Of a stretch of 34,688 bases of DNA, positions 13,596-29,013 are shown piece by piece. Numbering within the stretch: position 1 is the first letter of the stretch; every line of letters begins with the position of its first letter. The DNA comes from Candidatus Peregrinibacteria bacterium (GTDB lineage: Bacteria; Patescibacteriota; Gracilibacteria; UM-FILTER-43-11), in contig JAFGCR010000014.1 of assembly GCA_016932495.1 (NCBI GenBank), positions 1-34,688 on the forward strand, in the 5' to 3' direction. Made by a program: the position numbers and the translations under genes. Below the pieces are notes generated by a model. The model did no database searches. It was not told the origin of the DNA and worked only from the letters and a program-made list of their open reading frames with translations.

Positions 13596-13624
13596 TTGCC
13601 ATTTTTGGTCAAAATTGGTATAAT
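13596..13624 (+). promoter_or_regulatory. Sigma70-type promoter with extended -10
   Basis: TTGCCA (13596-13601), 17-nt spacer, TGG-TATAAT (-10 at 13619-13624); upstream of the 187-aa gene. Confidence 0.7.
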
Positions 13625-13637
13625 TAATTAATTAAAA

Positions 13638-13688
13638 GATTGAAGATTAATTTTTAACAGCGAAGCGTTTCAATTTTCAATCTTCAAT
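13638..13688. repeat. 51-bp quasi-palindromic repeat, copy 1 (F)
   Basis: GATTGAAGATTAATTTTTAACAGCGAAGCGTTTCAATTTTCAATCTTCAAT; matches 20811-20861 with 4 differences, no gaps. Confidence 0.9.
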
Positions 13689-13695
13689 AAAAAGA

Positions 13696-14259
13696 ATGCC
13701 CGCTAAAAACCAACATCCAGAGGCCGAAAAAAAACAACCCTCCGCCCACGAGTCGGTGGAGTCGTTTATTGGCCGGAAAAAGGCGGAAAAAGAGGCTGAA
13801 GTCAGAGAAGCAGTTTCCGAAAAAATGGCCGGTACGCAGGAAGAAGTGGCCGAAGTGATCGGTAGCGCGGAAAAGCCGAAAGAAAAAGTCTCTAAAAAGG
13901 CCGGGGAAAAAGGGGAGGGAAAGATGCCGGCGGGCAAAGCTCCGTCTGATGACCAAGCCGCTCAGGTCATTACGGCGGATTTAAAGGATTATGATTTTCC
14001 TTCCGAAGAGGTGATGGTCAAAAAGATCCGTACCGCCATTCAGGCTCAGATCAAATTCGAATGGAAGCGGGCGAAAAATTTTCAGGGAAAATTGGATAGC
14101 GGGGGGGCGGACGGGTATAACAAATCCATTGCCCGCATCCGCAGTCTTAAGCAGGTTTTGGCTTCCCTGTTCACTTCGGCGGCAGGTTTCTTAAAAAACC
14201 TGTACGTCAAATATTTCACGCCGGATGGGAAGCGGAGGAAGATGGAGGAGGTGGAGTAG
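13696..14259 (+). CDS. Uncharacterised charged protein, 187 aa
   Basis: Open ORF after a good promoter; Lys/Glu/Ala-rich N-terminal half, helical C-terminal half; no family recognised. Confidence 0.7.
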   Translation: MPAKNQHPEAEKKQPSAHESVESFIGRKKAEKEAEVREAVSEKMAGTQEEVAEVIGSAEKPKEKVSKKAGEKGEGKMPAGKAPSDDQAAQVITADLKDYDFPSEEVMVKKIRTAIQAQIKFEWKRAKNFQGKLDSGGADGYNKSIARIRSLKQVLASLFTSAAGFLKNLYVKYFTPDGKRRKMEEVE

Positions 14260-14262
14260 GGA

Positions 14263-17200
14263 TTAAACAGTTGCTTTCGCCTTTTCCTTTTCCCACCAGT
14301 TATTCAGAATCTCTACCATCTTTTCTTTTGGTAGTCCTATTTTTTCGTAAAACTTGATCCAGTTGCCGCTTCGGTCAGCGTCCAGCACTTCGGTGTCAAT
14401 AATTCCCGCTTTATCAAAATCGATATCTCCACCGTCCACTTCAAAGGGGCGTTCGGCACCCGCCACCCAATGATGTTTTGCGGATTCGCCCTTTATCCAG
14501 TTTAATAGGTTGCTCATGGAAACTGCCTGGGCAAAATTGAGGCTGGTGGCATAATTCTCGATATTCCATGTATCACCTGATTTTTTAATAGTCGTTTTAG
14601 CGTCAGAATCCAGACGTTTTAACAGGATGGTATTTTGATCTTTTACTTCAAAATCCAGCTGACTCCAGTTCATGCCTTCTTTGATTCGGGTGATTTCTGC
14701 AGTGTACTCCTGTTCAAAATGTTCAGATTCTTTGGGTTCCTGATTTTCAAATGAAGCGGGCGCAATGTGTCCGATTTCTTTACGTCCTTTATGGAATTTA
14801 CGGATGGCTTCATTGTAACCGTTTTGAAGTATTTCTGCCATGCTCCTGACTTGATAGGCGAAATTAAAGCATTGGGCGTCATGTATAAATTCAGTGGTCG
14901 ATACCACAAAGGAGCGGTGGCGGTATCCCAGTACATCGTTGCTGTTCTGATAAAACCGCTCCACAACCTCCTTTATGAATCCTTCTTTATTCATATCCTG
15001 TTCGTCCAGTGTAAGATCGAATGACAGGCCTGGGTTAAACATATGCCATTCGCTTCCGTCCCAGTAGATTCCGTGGAATTCCTCTTTTTCTTCGCAGAAA
15101 AATTCTTTGATTGTCGCCTCGTCCGCATCTCCCGTGTAACCAAAGTATTCCGCGAGCCGGTACATGGCGTACAAGCCCGGTTTCCGGCTTTCTTCGGGAA
15201 TGTTTTTTTCAAATTGCTGATAACTCGGGGAATTTTTTACATCCATGTCGTTTAAATTTGTCAGGACTTCATCTAAGGTCATGGGCGGTTCGAAAAGTTT
15301 GGGATTACTCAACGCCATTTTCCAGTGCACACTCCGTTTAGCCACCAGATAATTCCGGATCATGGTCGCGTATTCACGCATGGCATACATGATGCCGGGA
15401 TTTTCCGCCAGTTTTTTTTCTGCTTCAGGGTCTTCGGTGACTTTATGGATCTGAACATACAACCGAAGCAGATAGAATGTATCCATTTTTTCCAGATTTT
15501 CTTCCAGATAGGGGTTCTCCTTTTTATCGAATGTGAGTAAGTGGCTTTTGTACGCATCGATCAGTAAGTAGGGCGCAAAATCCCTTTTGGCCTCTGGGCT
15601 GAAAGAGGTTCCTGTGATGTCGTAGCGTTCATCCATCAGGTCATAAACGGTTCCTTCACTGACAAATTTCAGTTCACCGCCCGCCCGCTTTTTTTCTTCG
15701 CGCATTTGCATCAGGTCATCAAAAAGCTGAGCGTCGGCAATGAATTGTTTAGCGGCTCCATAATTTTTTACGCTGGTTGCAATGCTATGCTGAAAATAAT
15801 ATTCATGATATTTGGTATAGCTTTTTTCAATGGCTTCGTTGATTTCGTAATTTTTCGCCCCTTGTTTTTTATTTTCATCAAACATGATGTTGTAGATCTC
15901 CGGGTTTTTATGAGCTGCGATAAGCGCTTTGAACATCTTATGCATGATTTTCTTTTTCTCTTCGATGCCTTTGTCCACTTCCTTATCCAGTGCTTTTTGA
16001 TAGGCATATGGATTGGTTTCTCCGAAAGCCGAACCGGAGGCTTTGAAGCCCGAAATCCATGATTCACCTAAATTGACTCCATGGTAAGTGGTGAACCATT
16101 GATGGATTAAATCGTCATACGGGTAGCTCTGCAACCATTCCGCTTCACTGCGAACCCTTTCCTCTGCCACTTCATACATTTTTTCTCCTGCATAAACCAC
16201 AAAAGTGGCCGGGACCCATGCGCGTCCAAGTGCTTTAGTGGCAGCACCTCCTTTGCCGAACAGTGTCATTGCAAAAGCGGTGTCGATGGCAGTGTTGGCT
16301 AAATAGAGTCCCCCCATGGCTGTTTCCATTCCAACCCTTTCAGGATTATCCGTTGAGACGGCTTCATAAAGGTGGGAACCTGAACTCCAGGCGCCAACTG
16401 CCGGGGCTGCCACGAATAACGCTTTGCCGCCTCCTTTTAAGAATTTTAAGGCTTTTATCAGTTTGCTTGATTCATTAATCGCTTTGAAAGCTTTTTGCGA
16501 ATTTTCCATAGCGGCCTCGACGGCTTTTTGAGTTGTTTTTAAGGTTTCGGCAGACCCTTTGGCTGTTTTCATGGCTTCTTCCACTTTTTTTAGTTCGTTC
16601 AGCTGGGCGACCAATTTTTCCATTTCTTTTTTAGCTTCAGCCGCTTTATTCAGTAGCTCTTCTGCCTTGGCCGCGTTTTTCATTTTATTGGCGCGGGCAA
16701 TTGCTTTTTCAATGGTGGTCATATCGGCTTCCGCATTGGCGAGCATTTTTTGCAGATTTCCTTCGGCCTGGGCGTAACGGTCAAACCGTTTGGCTACATT
16801 TTTATATACATTGCTTAGTTTTTCTTTGGCCTTCCCCGCTTTTTCCCCGATGGCTTTCCTGAGTTTGGCGAGGCGGGATTCGGTTTTTCCGGAGGTTCCG
16901 ATTTTTTCTCCTTCTTCCAGAACATGTTTAATATCTTCAGCGCTTCCCCCTTTCAGCATTTGTTCGATCACTTCACTTTCCGCAGCAAGACCTCTTTCTT
17001 TTAATGAGTTCTGGATTCCTTTTTTGATATCGTCGATTTGGCCCTGAAGTTTTGCTCGTACATCCAAACGCATTTCAGTGCTTAATTTTGATTCCAGTAT
17101 TCCGATTTCTTCCAGCTCCCTCGCATAAAAAGTCGCAGCTTCTACTTGAGTGACTGCGGCAGGCGCACCACTTTCCATTTTTGATAAGATTTCTTTGATT

Positions 17201-20200
17201 TTATTTTGGTCTTTGGTGTCCGCGATCAGTTCCGCTGTTTTCCGGTCAATAGTTACGCCTTTTTTGGCTAATGTTTTTTGGATTTTATCGGCGTCGACTT
17301 GCTTGGCCAATGTCTTAAGCAGTTGATTGAATTTTTTAGTGCCGGCAACGGCTTCAATGATCTCTTTGTTGCTAAGATACTGGCTCCCGTCGGTTACCAT
17401 ACCAATAAATTTTTTGACATATTTAGGATTTTTAAGCTGTCCTAACAAATATTCTCTTTCCGACCCATTTATTACACCGATTTCTTTAATTATTGGCTTA
17501 AGTTTCTTATAACTGTCCGCATTTTTAAATTCAGGATGGCTGATTAATTTCGAAAAAAAGTCATCCAATTTTTCCGCTTTGTTGTATGCCTTGTCGATGT
17601 CAATAGCTTCACTTCCTTCTTTTAATACCGTGATTTCTCCTCGCCCTCTTCCGCCAAAAATTCCATCATAACGGTCGGCAAATCGTTGTGTATAAATGTG
17701 CAGCATACGCTTGTTCCAGTCAGGCATTAATAATCGGCTGAACTCCTTTTTTGTTCCGGCCGCCCATGCATATTTGGCCCTTTTCCATAACCCCATTTTC
17801 GCTAAGGGCTTTACGGAATAATAATGCCGGAGCATTTTAGCGTCCCGGAGCATAAGGTTGATTGCCTGACTTGGTGATTTTCTGTATTTGAGGATACTGA
17901 CAGCGGCCAAGCCTTTTTCTTTGCCAAACCGATATAATTTGTAAGCGCTTTTAGTGGGCAGTGTTATTGGTGTCGTAAATCCTTTTCTGAATCCTTTAAC
18001 CCCCCCCCACACTTTTGAAAGGGGTCCTCCCTTTGCCTTAAGGATTCCAACGGTTGTACCGATGGCAATGTAAGGTGACGTACCGACAGCCCATACTTTC
18101 AAACCTTCTCCGACATCCCCATTGATCCATGCTTTAACGGCATCGACCGCGGCCCCCATCGGCTTAAAAAAGATATGTTTTAAACCCACTTGTATATAAC
18201 CCATATGAGGTTCTTCCCGGGAAAAGAAAAGTGTAAAACCTTGGCTTACAATCAGACTGAGCATCGCTGTCCATCCACCATCCAGAGCCTCTTTCCATTC
18301 CTCATCGCTGACATCCAGAGCCGCTCTGAAAGGGGCAATAGAATCTTTGGCCATCACAATGGATCCCCTCACAGCCTCCTGTCCGAACCCTCCGCCGAAT
18401 GTAAGAAAATCTGCTTTCGCCATCTGTCCAAGGAATTGTTTGCGTCTTTCAGGGGGCAATTCATCAGTCCATGGTGATAGTGCTTCTTCGGCGGTTTTGG
18501 CTACATTTTCTATTCGTTGTTTTGCGTATTCCTGCAAGCGGCTGAAATACGGCTTAAGGATTGCCAGATCCGGCAGCTTTATATTGAAGTTCGTTTCGGC
18601 ATTCGAAAGCACGTAAACCAATTCAGACAGATAACGGGTTTTAACCTCCGGGCTTACCGTATTCAGCAGTGTGTAAAGCAGAGCTAATTGGGTCGGTTGG
18701 CCGACTTTTTGCTCAGGATTTTTAAAGTCGATATTTTTTGAGACAAAATTTAAATAAACGGCGTCTGAGAAAGCAATGGGTTCCGGTGAATCGAAATACC
18801 TCTGGAGCAGATTTGAATTGTTTTTAGGATTTCCGATGGATTCGGTAGGAAGTTCAAAACGTTTAATACAATTGGGGATTATATCTTCGAGTGTCCGTTT
18901 TTTTATGGTTTCAAAGAATTTTTCGGCCGCTAAGATCGCGTTGATCGATCTGCCTTCGGCACGGGCATTGCTTAAAACGTCTTTTGTCTTCATATTCAGC
19001 GTTGCCCCACGGAAAATATCTTTAAAAGCAATGGCTCGGAAATCACGTTTTTCCTCTTTTGTTAAAAGCTGGGTCTCGATACCTAAATGTCTGCTTAAAT
19101 CTTCAAGGAATTTCCCTTTTTCATCCTTCTTTTCAGCGCCATGGACGGCTTTTTTGATTGATTGTTTCAATTCCACTATTTCGTAGCTGCCTGCCGCAAT
19201 GGCTTTCTTTAAACTTTCCTGTACATTTTTATTGATTTTATGGGCAGGATCTTCGGCCAGATGTTTTTCAACAAAATCTTTTAGAAGCATACTTCCGTAA
19301 TCAAATCGCCCCCCCATACCTTTCTGCAGACCGTAATAGGTTGATGCAATGATATTAAAAGCTGCGTAAATATTTTCCGGTTTTACATTATTGATCGGCA
19401 TGAGTTCATTGTCATTCGGGATAGTTCCTTCTTCACCCATGTCTTTGAACTTTTGCCAAAAGGCCGCAATGTCTCCTACCTTTTTCTCTTTTAACCGTTT
19501 GCATATATTCAGTATTTCAGCTTTATCACCTGGCTGATACCGCCTTTCATTCAAACAATGGAGGGCGATTAAAAGGCTTACTGGCCCATCAAAATCAGCC
19601 TCTTTTTTCAAGATATCCGCCTGTTCTTTTCCTTTGTCCAATAGTCCTTTAGCCTTATCTTCCCCCTCCGCCGCCTTTGCTGCCGCTGCCGCCTCCAATG
19701 CCGCGATCCTTTCCTCAGCCTCTTTGAGTTTTCCATCTTTCATTTTTCCCGCAATGTCATCCAGGTCCGCGTCACCGATTTTGATGCCCATTTTGGCATA
19801 CAGGAGTTTTTTCAGTTCCCCCCGGCCTAAAAAGAGGCCGAGCAAAAGAATACCTAAAATCCCCATGGTCTTTTTGCTGGGCATCAGGCTTTCAAAAAAT
19901 CCTTTTTCACTGCCTTGCCCCAGGGTTTCAGGGGTTTCATCTTTTCTTCCCCAGTCGAATATGCCTTTGAGGACTTTGTAGCCCAGATAGGCGCCTACAG
20001 CGCCTACAGCCAGAAGGCCGATGGTGGCGGTCTTGTCCCGTTTCCACATATCTCCCAGTTCGTCGAGCCATTTTTTGCTTTTTTCCTGGGCGTTTGAGGT
20101 GATCTCCTGCCAGGCTTCCTGCAAATGTTTGCCGGTCGGGCCGCCCTGACCGGTGAGTTCATTGTATTTTTCGATGGCGGCGGTTTCAAAACCATGGACT

Positions 20201-20526
20201 TTAACCCCGCTGCTGGTTGCTTTGGTCGCCAGGGTGCTGGCAGAGAGCTGAGTTAAGTCGATGTCTTCTTTTTTTTCTTTTAACCGCGCCATCAGGCCGC
20301 CAATGATCATTTCAACGGCGTACAGGCCCTGGGTCTGTTTTTCAGGCTCTACATTCGCCTTCAGCTTCGGTATCTCCATTACGTCTTCGGTGCTGACATC
20401 CATTTTTTCTAACAGGTCAGCGTTTTCTTTTGCTGATTTTTTCAGCTCCGCGATTTCACGGTCCGTGTCTTTGTCGGACTGGGTGCGGAGTTTTTCAATG
20501 GCTTTTTTGGGGTTTAGATCACGCAT
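14263..20526 (-). CDS. Giant uncharacterised protein (2087 aa) with several hydrophobic segments and coiled coils
   Basis: Single 6.3-kb ORF; hydrophobic stretches such as TIGLLAVGAVGAYLGYKVL, MGILGILLLGLFLG and ALFVAAPAVGAW; no catalytic motif recognised. Confidence 0.85.
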   Translation of the reverse strand: MRDLNPKKAIEKLRTQSDKDTDREIAELKKSAKENADLLEKMDVSTEDVMEIPKLKANVEPEKQTQGLYAVEMIIGGLMARLKEKKEDIDLTQLSASTLATKATSSGVKVHGFETAAIEKYNELTGQGGPTGKHLQEAWQEITSNAQEKSKKWLDELGDMWKRDKTATIGLLAVGAVGAYLGYKVLKGIFDWGRKDETPETLGQGSEKGFFESLMPSKKTMGILGILLLGLFLGRGELKKLLYAKMGIKIGDADLDDIAGKMKDGKLKEAEERIAALEAAAAAKAAEGEDKAKGLLDKGKEQADILKKEADFDGPVSLLIALHCLNERRYQPGDKAEILNICKRLKEKKVGDIAAFWQKFKDMGEEGTIPNDNELMPINNVKPENIYAAFNIIASTYYGLQKGMGGRFDYGSMLLKDFVEKHLAEDPAHKINKNVQESLKKAIAAGSYEIVELKQSIKKAVHGAEKKDEKGKFLEDLSRHLGIETQLLTKEEKRDFRAIAFKDIFRGATLNMKTKDVLSNARAEGRSINAILAAEKFFETIKKRTLEDIIPNCIKRFELPTESIGNPKNNSNLLQRYFDSPEPIAFSDAVYLNFVSKNIDFKNPEQKVGQPTQLALLYTLLNTVSPEVKTRYLSELVYVLSNAETNFNIKLPDLAILKPYFSRLQEYAKQRIENVAKTAEEALSPWTDELPPERRKQFLGQMAKADFLTFGGGFGQEAVRGSIVMAKDSIAPFRAALDVSDEEWKEALDGGWTAMLSLIVSQGFTLFFSREEPHMGYIQVGLKHIFFKPMGAAVDAVKAWINGDVGEGLKVWAVGTSPYIAIGTTVGILKAKGGPLSKVWGGVKGFRKGFTTPITLPTKSAYKLYRFGKEKGLAAVSILKYRKSPSQAINLMLRDAKMLRHYYSVKPLAKMGLWKRAKYAWAAGTKKEFSRLLMPDWNKRMLHIYTQRFADRYDGIFGGRGRGEITVLKEGSEAIDIDKAYNKAEKLDDFFSKLISHPEFKNADSYKKLKPIIKEIGVINGSEREYLLGQLKNPKYVKKFIGMVTDGSQYLSNKEIIEAVAGTKKFNQLLKTLAKQVDADKIQKTLAKKGVTIDRKTAELIADTKDQNKIKEILSKMESGAPAAVTQVEAATFYARELEEIGILESKLSTEMRLDVRAKLQGQIDDIKKGIQNSLKERGLAAESEVIEQMLKGGSAEDIKHVLEEGEKIGTSGKTESRLAKLRKAIGEKAGKAKEKLSNVYKNVAKRFDRYAQAEGNLQKMLANAEADMTTIEKAIARANKMKNAAKAEELLNKAAEAKKEMEKLVAQLNELKKVEEAMKTAKGSAETLKTTQKAVEAAMENSQKAFKAINESSKLIKALKFLKGGGKALFVAAPAVGAWSSGSHLYEAVSTDNPERVGMETAMGGLYLANTAIDTAFAMTLFGKGGAATKALGRAWVPATFVVYAGEKMYEVAEERVRSEAEWLQSYPYDDLIHQWFTTYHGVNLGESWISGFKASGSAFGETNPYAYQKALDKEVDKGIEEKKKIMHKMFKALIAAHKNPEIYNIMFDENKKQGAKNYEINEAIEKSYTKYHEYYFQHSIATSVKNYGAAKQFIADAQLFDDLMQMREEKKRAGGELKFVSEGTVYDLMDERYDITGTSFSPEAKRDFAPYLLIDAYKSHLLTFDKKENPYLEENLEKMDTFYLLRLYVQIHKVTEDPEAEKKLAENPGIMYAMREYATMIRNYLVAKRSVHWKMALSNPKLFEPPMTLDEVLTNLNDMDVKNSPSYQQFEKNIPEESRKPGLYAMYRLAEYFGYTGDADEATIKEFFCEEKEEFHGIYWDGSEWHMFNPGLSFDLTLDEQDMNKEGFIKEVVERFYQNSNDVLGYRHRSFVVSTTEFIHDAQCFNFAYQVRSMAEILQNGYNEAIRKFHKGRKEIGHIAPASFENQEPKESEHFEQEYTAEITRIKEGMNWSQLDFEVKDQNTILLKRLDSDAKTTIKKSGDTWNIENYATSLNFAQAVSMSNLLNWIKGESAKHHWVAGAERPFEVDGGDIDFDKAGIIDTEVLDADRSGNWIKFYEKIGLPKEKMVEILNNWWEKEKAKATV

Positions 20527-20783
20527 TATTTTTTGGGTTTTAATTTTTCAAGCTGGTGGCGGGTTTTTAAATGGCTCAGGTTTTTACTGATGATCAGCTG
20601 TTCCGCCTCTTTGAGCTGGTCATTTTCCAAACTGTAGCCAAGGAGCGCCCATTCTTCTTTTTGCCGGTCGGTTAAGAATTGTGCTTTTTCGACGGCTTTC
20701 TGATAGCGCGTTTGGGCGTTATGGCGCTTTTGGTCGTAATCGATGGCGCCGGGGCTGATGAGTTGTTGAGTAGGGATGTTCAT
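20526..20783 (-). CDS. Small uncharacterised helical protein, 85 aa
   Basis: Start 20783; stop shares 1 nt with the start of the 2087-aa ORF (TAATG), indicating coupling. Confidence 0.75.
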   Translation of the reverse strand: MNIPTQQLISPGAIDYDQKRHNAQTRYQKAVEKAQFLTDRQKEEWALLGYSLENDQLKEAEQLIISKNLSHLKTRHQLEKLKPKK

Positions 20784-20810
20784 TTTATTTATTGAAGATT
20801 TAAAATTGAA

Positions 20811-20861
20811 GATTGAAGATTAATTTTCAATAGCGAAGCGTTTCAATCTTTAATCTTCAAT
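20811..20861. repeat. 51-bp quasi-palindromic repeat, copy 2 (G)
   Basis: GATTGAAGATTAATTTTCAATAGCGAAGCGTTTCAATCTTTAATCTTCAAT; outer arms ATTGAAGATTAA/TTAATCTTCAAT are perfect inverted repeats. Confidence 0.9.
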
Positions 20862-20875
20862 GAATTAATCTATAT

Positions 20876-20884
20876 ATTATAACA
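20876..20884 (-). promoter_or_regulatory. Extended -10 promoter for the 85-aa/2087-aa operon
   Basis: Minus strand TGT-TATAAT (TATAAT at 20881-20876); no good -35 seen. Confidence 0.5.
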
Positions 20885-20913
20885 TTTTTTACTCTGAAAA
20901 GCCACCCCTAAAT

Positions 20914-21029
20914 GGTTGTCGGTGTCGGTGTCGCCGCGCGTATCGGTATCGTAAAACGTTAACGTCACCGGCCCGACACCGTTTGACCACAACGATACGA
21001 GCCATGACAACACTAACGACACCTTGTGT
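20914..21029. repeat. Spacer repeat array H downstream of valS
   Basis: GTCGGTGTCGGTGTCGCC...CGGTATCG on the left; inverted relatives CCGACACCG, CAACGATACG and AACGACACC on the right. Confidence 0.7.
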
Positions 21030-24254: not shown

Positions 24255-24321
24255 AGGGTTCAGATTATCTATTTATTATACCAAAAAAATGCCTTATTTA
24301 CAAGGAAACCGGATTCTGAAG

Positions 24322-24341
24322 GCGCGGATAATAATCCGCGC
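24322..24341 (-). terminator. Hairpin downstream of prsW-like gene, possible terminator
   Basis: GCGCGGAT-AATA-ATCCGCGC: perfect 8-bp arms, 4-nt loop; no long U tract follows on the minus strand. Confidence 0.4.
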
Positions 24342-24368
24342 TTCAAATTTTCGTTTCCCGATCTCCTA

Positions 24369-25810: not shown

Positions 25811-25890
25811 AATAGATTAAAGATTTAAGATTAAAGATTTTAAATCTGAAATCAGATCCTGAACTTGATCCAGGCTGAAATCAGAAATAA
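25811..25890. repeat. Spacer repeat array K
   Basis: AGATTAAAGATTTAAGATTAAAGATTTTAAATC, then CTGAAATCAGATCCTGAACTTGATCCAGGCTGAAATCAG with direct and inverted words. Confidence 0.7.
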
Positions 25891-28938: not shown

Positions 28939-29013
28939 TCGTGTCTCGTGCTTCGTGTCTCGTGACTTGTATTTTATTTGCTCACGAGTCACTAGGCACG
29001 AGTCACTAGGCAC
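28939..29013. repeat. Spacer repeat array L
   Basis: CACGAGTCACTAGG twice in perfect tandem (28983-28996, 28997-29010); inverted relatives CGTGTCTCGTGCTT and CGTGTCTCGTGACTT on the left. Confidence 0.9.

Follow-up and report, generated by a model that had tools for sequence, protein, structure and literature searches.

Short dispersed palindromes in the 5′ leaders of a Candidatus Peregrinibacteria genome: a repeat pair around a conserved gene block

Heptamer direct repeats are familiar from cyanobacteria as STRR sequences, to which the word arrays described below can be likened. At the 5′ ends of transcripts, stem-loops of the ompA type stabilise mRNA. The TAACTGA heptamers are direct repeats of one word upstream of start codons, with no predicted secondary structure (MacGregor 2015, PMC4679880). 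Earlier reports describe heptamers as one word per genome (PMC4679880) and palindromes mainly downstream of genes (PMC3733652); the present genomes show many word-built palindrome families in 5′ leaders, and orthologous leaders of sister species that can hold unrelated hairpins.

The stretch of DNA analysed (the window; 34,688 nt) is contig 28 of a 1.175-Mb genome in 50 contigs. A sequence-only reading had reported a pair of 51-bp direct repeats at 13638-13688 and 20811-20861. The pair is real: on recounting, 47 of 51 positions are identical without gaps, a repeat finder extended the match to 56 nt at 91% identity, and a BLAST of the pair against the whole genome gave an E value of 1.4e-16. 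The element is longer than the 51 bp first noted, copy 2 running from about 20791 to 20861. The features are:

13619..13624, + strand: extended -10 box TGGTATAAT of the 187-aa gene, 14 nt upstream of copy 1; kept in G001 and G010
13639..13688, - strand: dispersed palindrome, copy 1 (50 bp); lies in the 187-aa gene leader, with GCGAAGC of the core on the + strand
13696..14259, + strand: 187-aa gene, conserved in the family at the same place; no Pfam match and a sub-threshold NCBIfam match only
14263..20526, - strand: 2087-aa giant gene; relatives in conserved synteny in 13 of 18 family genomes, the present one included
20526..20783, - strand: 85-aa gene, first in the operon; its place next to valS is conserved in the family
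about 20791..20861, - strand: dispersed palindrome, copy 2 (71 bp); lies in the 85-aa/2087-aa operon leader
20876..20881, - strand: extended -10 box TGTTATAAT of the 85-aa/2087-aa operon, 14 nt upstream of copy 2; kept in relatives
28941..29006, no strand assigned: palindrome of a different vocabulary (CACGAGN words) but the same architecture, in another window spacer

The same reading had placed both copies in mRNA leaders, each between an extended -10 box (TGnTATAAT; 13619-13624 on the + strand, 20881-20876 on the - strand) and the first start codon. Both placements hold, and both boxes are kept upstream of the orthologous genes in relatives, reading TTGGTATAAT and TGCTATAATATATAGATTAA in the sister species (G001). 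The promoters are thus backed by a footprint and not by consensus alone, and each copy truly lies between a real promoter and a start codon.

The window pair belongs to a larger family. With up to three mismatches allowed, the core TCAATAGCGAAGCGTTTCAAT occurs nine times in the genome, on eight contigs (i.e. seven element copies beyond the window pair); the reversed control pattern gave no matches. Complete copies measure 50-78 bp and are palindromic: degenerate heptamer arms (ATTGAAR / YTTCAAT) surround a GC core, CGCTTCGCT, that reads AGCGAAGCG on the opposite strand; one strand carries GCGAAGC. As DNA, the GCGAAGC mini-hairpin is extraordinarily stable, with a Tm of about 78 C (PMC4686876), and this stability may be relevant to the element. 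Copy 2 and the copy before pilB (contig 49) are identical at 70 of 71 positions, and the six ungapped copies within the genome have 63-70 of 71 positions in common. The genes directly downstream of the nine copies, named by reading their sequences, are tsaE, the 85-aa gene, obg, purL, pilB, gyrB, a TIGR00725-like gene, lgt and the 187-aa gene. Eight of the nine copies have the same orientation relative to the gene, whilst window copy 1 is inverted (two-sided p 0.04). The element starts 14 nt after the -10 box in the 187-aa, 85-aa, pilB and purL leaders and 15 nt after it in the TIGR00725-like leader, which in these five leaders corresponds to about +7 of the predicted transcript.

The leader had also been called foldable. 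This stands for copy 2 (RNA fold z -4.9) and is shared by the purL (z -5.5) and pilB (z -4.0) copies, whereas copy 1 folds weakly as RNA (z only -1.8); as DNA, the element gives z values of -3.2 to -3.5. Rfam 15 has no curated family for the element, its single, chance-level match lying elsewhere (17036-17087), and a known cis-regulatory RNA family was rejected on this basis. Neither of the two element patterns was found in viral contigs.

Like the TAACTGA repeats (PMC4679880), the element has a 7-nt unit, is intergenic, lies mostly before start codons of unrelated genes and is species-specific; unlike them, the system uses many vocabularies, degenerate words, palindromes around a GC core and wholesale replacement between sister species. 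It also recalls the REP/REPIN sequences and their RAYT transposases (PMC3733652, PMC2817692, PMC3116915): its palindromes are short and scattered through intergenic DNA, each genome has several families, and movement is probably in trans. In contrast to REP, the aligned copies have no GTAG or CGTC tag and no flanking Y1/RAYT gene, the copies per family are few, and they lie upstream of genes, past the promoter, rather than near 3′ ends. None of the genome's four Y1 genes has an element copy beside it in the sequence read, and a RAYT association was rejected. As in a MITE, the element is non-autonomous, has inverted repeats at its termini and is missing from the corresponding site of a relative, but its arms are tandem words, no parent transposon was identified and no target-site duplication could be resolved, the leaders being AT-rich and too diverged to define one. 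Its predicted position and fold, a hairpin near the transcript 5′ end and unpaired sequence ahead of the start codon, resemble those of an ompA-type stabiliser. Because the repeats have no REP tags or RAYT, lie upstream, and are palindromic with many vocabularies, we do not place them in a named family; the best reading makes them a variant of the REP/STRR-type repeats.

Comparison with relatives indicates when the copies arrived. In the sister species, the leaders of the 187-aa gene (GGTATAATAATAAGATTGGTAATCACATTTCATG) and of the 85-aa gene (GCTATAATATATAGATTAAATAAACAAAAACCATG) are both without the element. The same genes and promoters are present there, which argues that both copies are recent, independent insertions; they appear most simply to have been gained after the split from G001, a comparison made with this single genome, 88% complete. 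The G001 leaders of pilB, purL, tsaE and obg likewise lack the element. Further afield, both the 187-aa and 85-aa leaders are without it in G010 and G009. The 85-aa leader of G014 is also without it, and the 187-aa leader of that genome has a different, AT-rich palindrome-like stretch; in G007 the 85-aa slot holds a different palindrome, of ATTCAAG words. At the same threshold, the core pattern that finds nine copies here matches once in G001, upstream of a different gene, and has no match in the 143 other class genomes searched. G011 and G016 hold more diverged relatives of the element that keep the core and differ in their arm words, and in G006 an orthologous leader (L057/L178) carries an ATTGAAR palindrome with no core. 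In other genera, spacers (L076 and L149) have related GC cores, ACGCTCGCTACGTTCGCTATT and ACGCTACGCTATC, beside AT-rich word arrays, which suggests a general architecture in which word arrays adjoin a GC mini-hairpin.

Direct repeats bounding three genes without known domains might be the ends of an inserted or excisable island, as the sequence-only reading had proposed. The giant protein, its small partner and the product of the convergent gene match no Pfam or NCBIfam family above cut-off, and no relatives of the 2087-aa protein were found in named genomes or in viral contigs. Nevertheless, the same block occupies the same place in relatives: reading from valS, G001 carries the 85-aa gene, the giant gene and the convergent 187-aa gene, followed by DsbA-like, HIT and TP-methylase genes, and this order recurs, as far as contigs extend, in G010, G012, G007, G015, G014 and G009. 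The block is thus syntenic beside valS in the family and present in seven relatives, among which three, the sister species included, are without the repeats in both leaders and G014 is without the repeat in the 85-aa leader. The seven additional copies also speak against an island, the element occurring at many spacers before unrelated genes, an outcome that the sequence-only reading had itself named as refuting its idea. Conserved synteny and empty leaders together rule out the repeats as island boundaries, and we give the island practically no credence. In genomes of this kind, flanking repeats should not be taken as good evidence for an island. Across the family, the trio on the valS side comprises a giant protein of 1,768-2,204 aa (full-length frames), a small one of 78-102 aa and a convergent one of 187-190 aa (13696-20783 here; L332-L338). 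A GHMP-kinase-like gene lies beside the 187-aa gene in G001 and G010 (L332, L333), and the same interval in G012, G007 and G009 (L334, L335, L338) has no match to it.

A shared leader had further been taken as a sign of co-regulation. Extended to the whole family, this would mean a leader RNA controlling all nine genes, with the window's two transcription units among them. Every copy sits immediately upstream of a gene, eight in one orientation, the core is invariant whilst the arms vary, and most copies fold strongly. But the downstream genes are unrelated housekeeping genes, the testable orthologous leaders of the sister species are without the element, copy 1 is inverted and Rfam holds no family for it. 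The covariation analysis proposed with that idea found both-sided changes in 5 of 16 consensus pairs, which is in favour; the signal is nevertheless weak, with many broken cells, and we rejected it as proof of RNA function; palindrome correction could also mimic it. The claim of co-regulation was not borne out by the gene set or by the sister leaders, and we consider it improbable.

Palindromes and heptamer arrays are widespread in this genome and its sister. We sampled 407 kb of the present genome and 400 kb of G001. Stretches with a 7-bp period occur in 61 of 284 spacers here and 56 of 290 in G001, i.e. about 20% in both species, as against 0.2 and 0.8 in shuffled sequence; the control periods gave 9 and 3 spacers (period 6) and 15 and 11 (period 8). 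Several vocabularies coexist, including ATTGAAR, CACGAGN, ATTTCWG, GTAAYTT, CTTAAGN, TCANNTG and AAATCCG, amongst others. Palindromes above a 2% shuffle threshold were found in 80 of 196 spacers of 30-200 bp here and in 75 of 206 in G001 (about 40%), a total that mixes functions in that convergent spacers may include terminators. The palindromes sort into numerous families whose copy numbers differ between the species, for example 9:0 for CACGAGN and 2:6 for GTAAYTT (here:G001). Within the window, palindromes or heptamer arrays of other families lie in spacers at 20910-20984, 24317-24345, 25816-25839 and 28941-29006. The sampled contigs of both genomes (G000, G001; L192-L231) also show weaker excesses at periods 8, 11, 14, 16 and 22, with 11-nt words such as GAATAGACTGC. 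About six copies of a HIP-like perfect palindrome, AGTCCGGACT, lie within 0.9 kb, partly inside a Y1 transposase-like gene (L009:50-860); the window has none.

This strong genome-wide periodicity raises a further alternative: that heptamer slippage together with hairpin (quasi-palindrome) correction built the palindromes where they stand, with no copy inserted. The variable repeat number in the arms and the coreless palindrome in the orthologous G006 leader fit such an origin. It has difficulty with copies at unrelated loci that agree at up to 70 of 71 positions, the non-heptameric core included; slippage in place cannot account for this identity, and we regard an in-place origin as very improbable. 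Slippage may still shape the arms after insertion.

The window repeats are very probably two members of a nine-copy family of short, non-autonomous, dispersed palindromes that were recently and independently inserted into existing 5′ leaders and are tolerated as 5′ mRNA hairpins. This reading is supported by the near-identical copies at unrelated loci, the empty sites in the sister species, the ancestral genes and promoters, and the other palindrome families in the same slots elsewhere. Each copy would have entered a short leader that already existed, some 7 nt past the predicted transcription start, and copying presumably uses a process acting on single-stranded or transiently open DNA. One of the four Y1 (HUH) transposases acting in trans is a possible mover, held only tentatively; template switching between leaders with common TATAAT-AGATTAATT and AAAAATG surroundings is a candidate on much the same footing. 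Copies would be retained where the promoter and the ribosome-binding region are spared. With the hairpin between the start site and the start codon, the promoter stays intact and a little unpaired sequence remains ahead of the ATG, which would explain why the hairpin is tolerated; at the 5′ end of the mRNA it might be neutral or stabilising, and stabilisation is plausible, if doubtful. Counting against this overall reading are the failure to resolve a target-site duplication, the lack of a Y1 gene flanked by the element, the weak RNA fold of copy 1, the reliance on one sister genome and the orientation shared by eight of the nine copies, which purely neutral insertion does not require.

The fate of leader slots was followed in 83 orthologous leaders of the two species, with gene calls from a simple ORF picker. 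Both species have palindromes in 26 leaders, 13 of which hold an unrelated pair; a further 33 have a palindrome in one species only, with no counterpart in the other in 30. The palindrome-bearing spacer is longer by about 45 bp on average (mean palindrome 70 bp), as expected from insertion. The clearest cases are pilB and purL, where promoter and start codon are unchanged whilst one species has an ATTGAAR hairpin and its sister a hairpin of CCCAATCAGG or CACAACTC words; short leaders without the insert are found in other genera for pilB (G003, G004) and purL (G003, G010). Occupation of the same slot in both species is slightly over-represented (odds ratios 1.9 for heptamer arrays and 2.5 for palindromes; p 0.13 and 0.07), but at these p values a same-slot preference is not established statistically, and as some divergent spacers were counted for both genes, the pairs are not fully independent.

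One could go further and regard the 5′ leader in this family as a hairpin slot, under selection for a hairpin a few nucleotides after the transcription start, with the sequence that fills it exchanged as a whole among unrelated palindrome families, perhaps through copying from one leader to another with shared homology from TATAAT to the start codon. We think this unlikely, although not negligibly so; if true, the presence of a hairpin would be functional and its identity irrelevant. The system makes two questions testable: how repeats with no transposase of their own are copied, and whether a leader needs a generic 5′ hairpin or a specific sequence. TATAATATAnAGATTAAT is common to the leaders of unrelated genes in several genera (window 20862-20881; L112-L191, L332-L338), forming a conserved stretch downstream of the -10 box, around the predicted transcription start.
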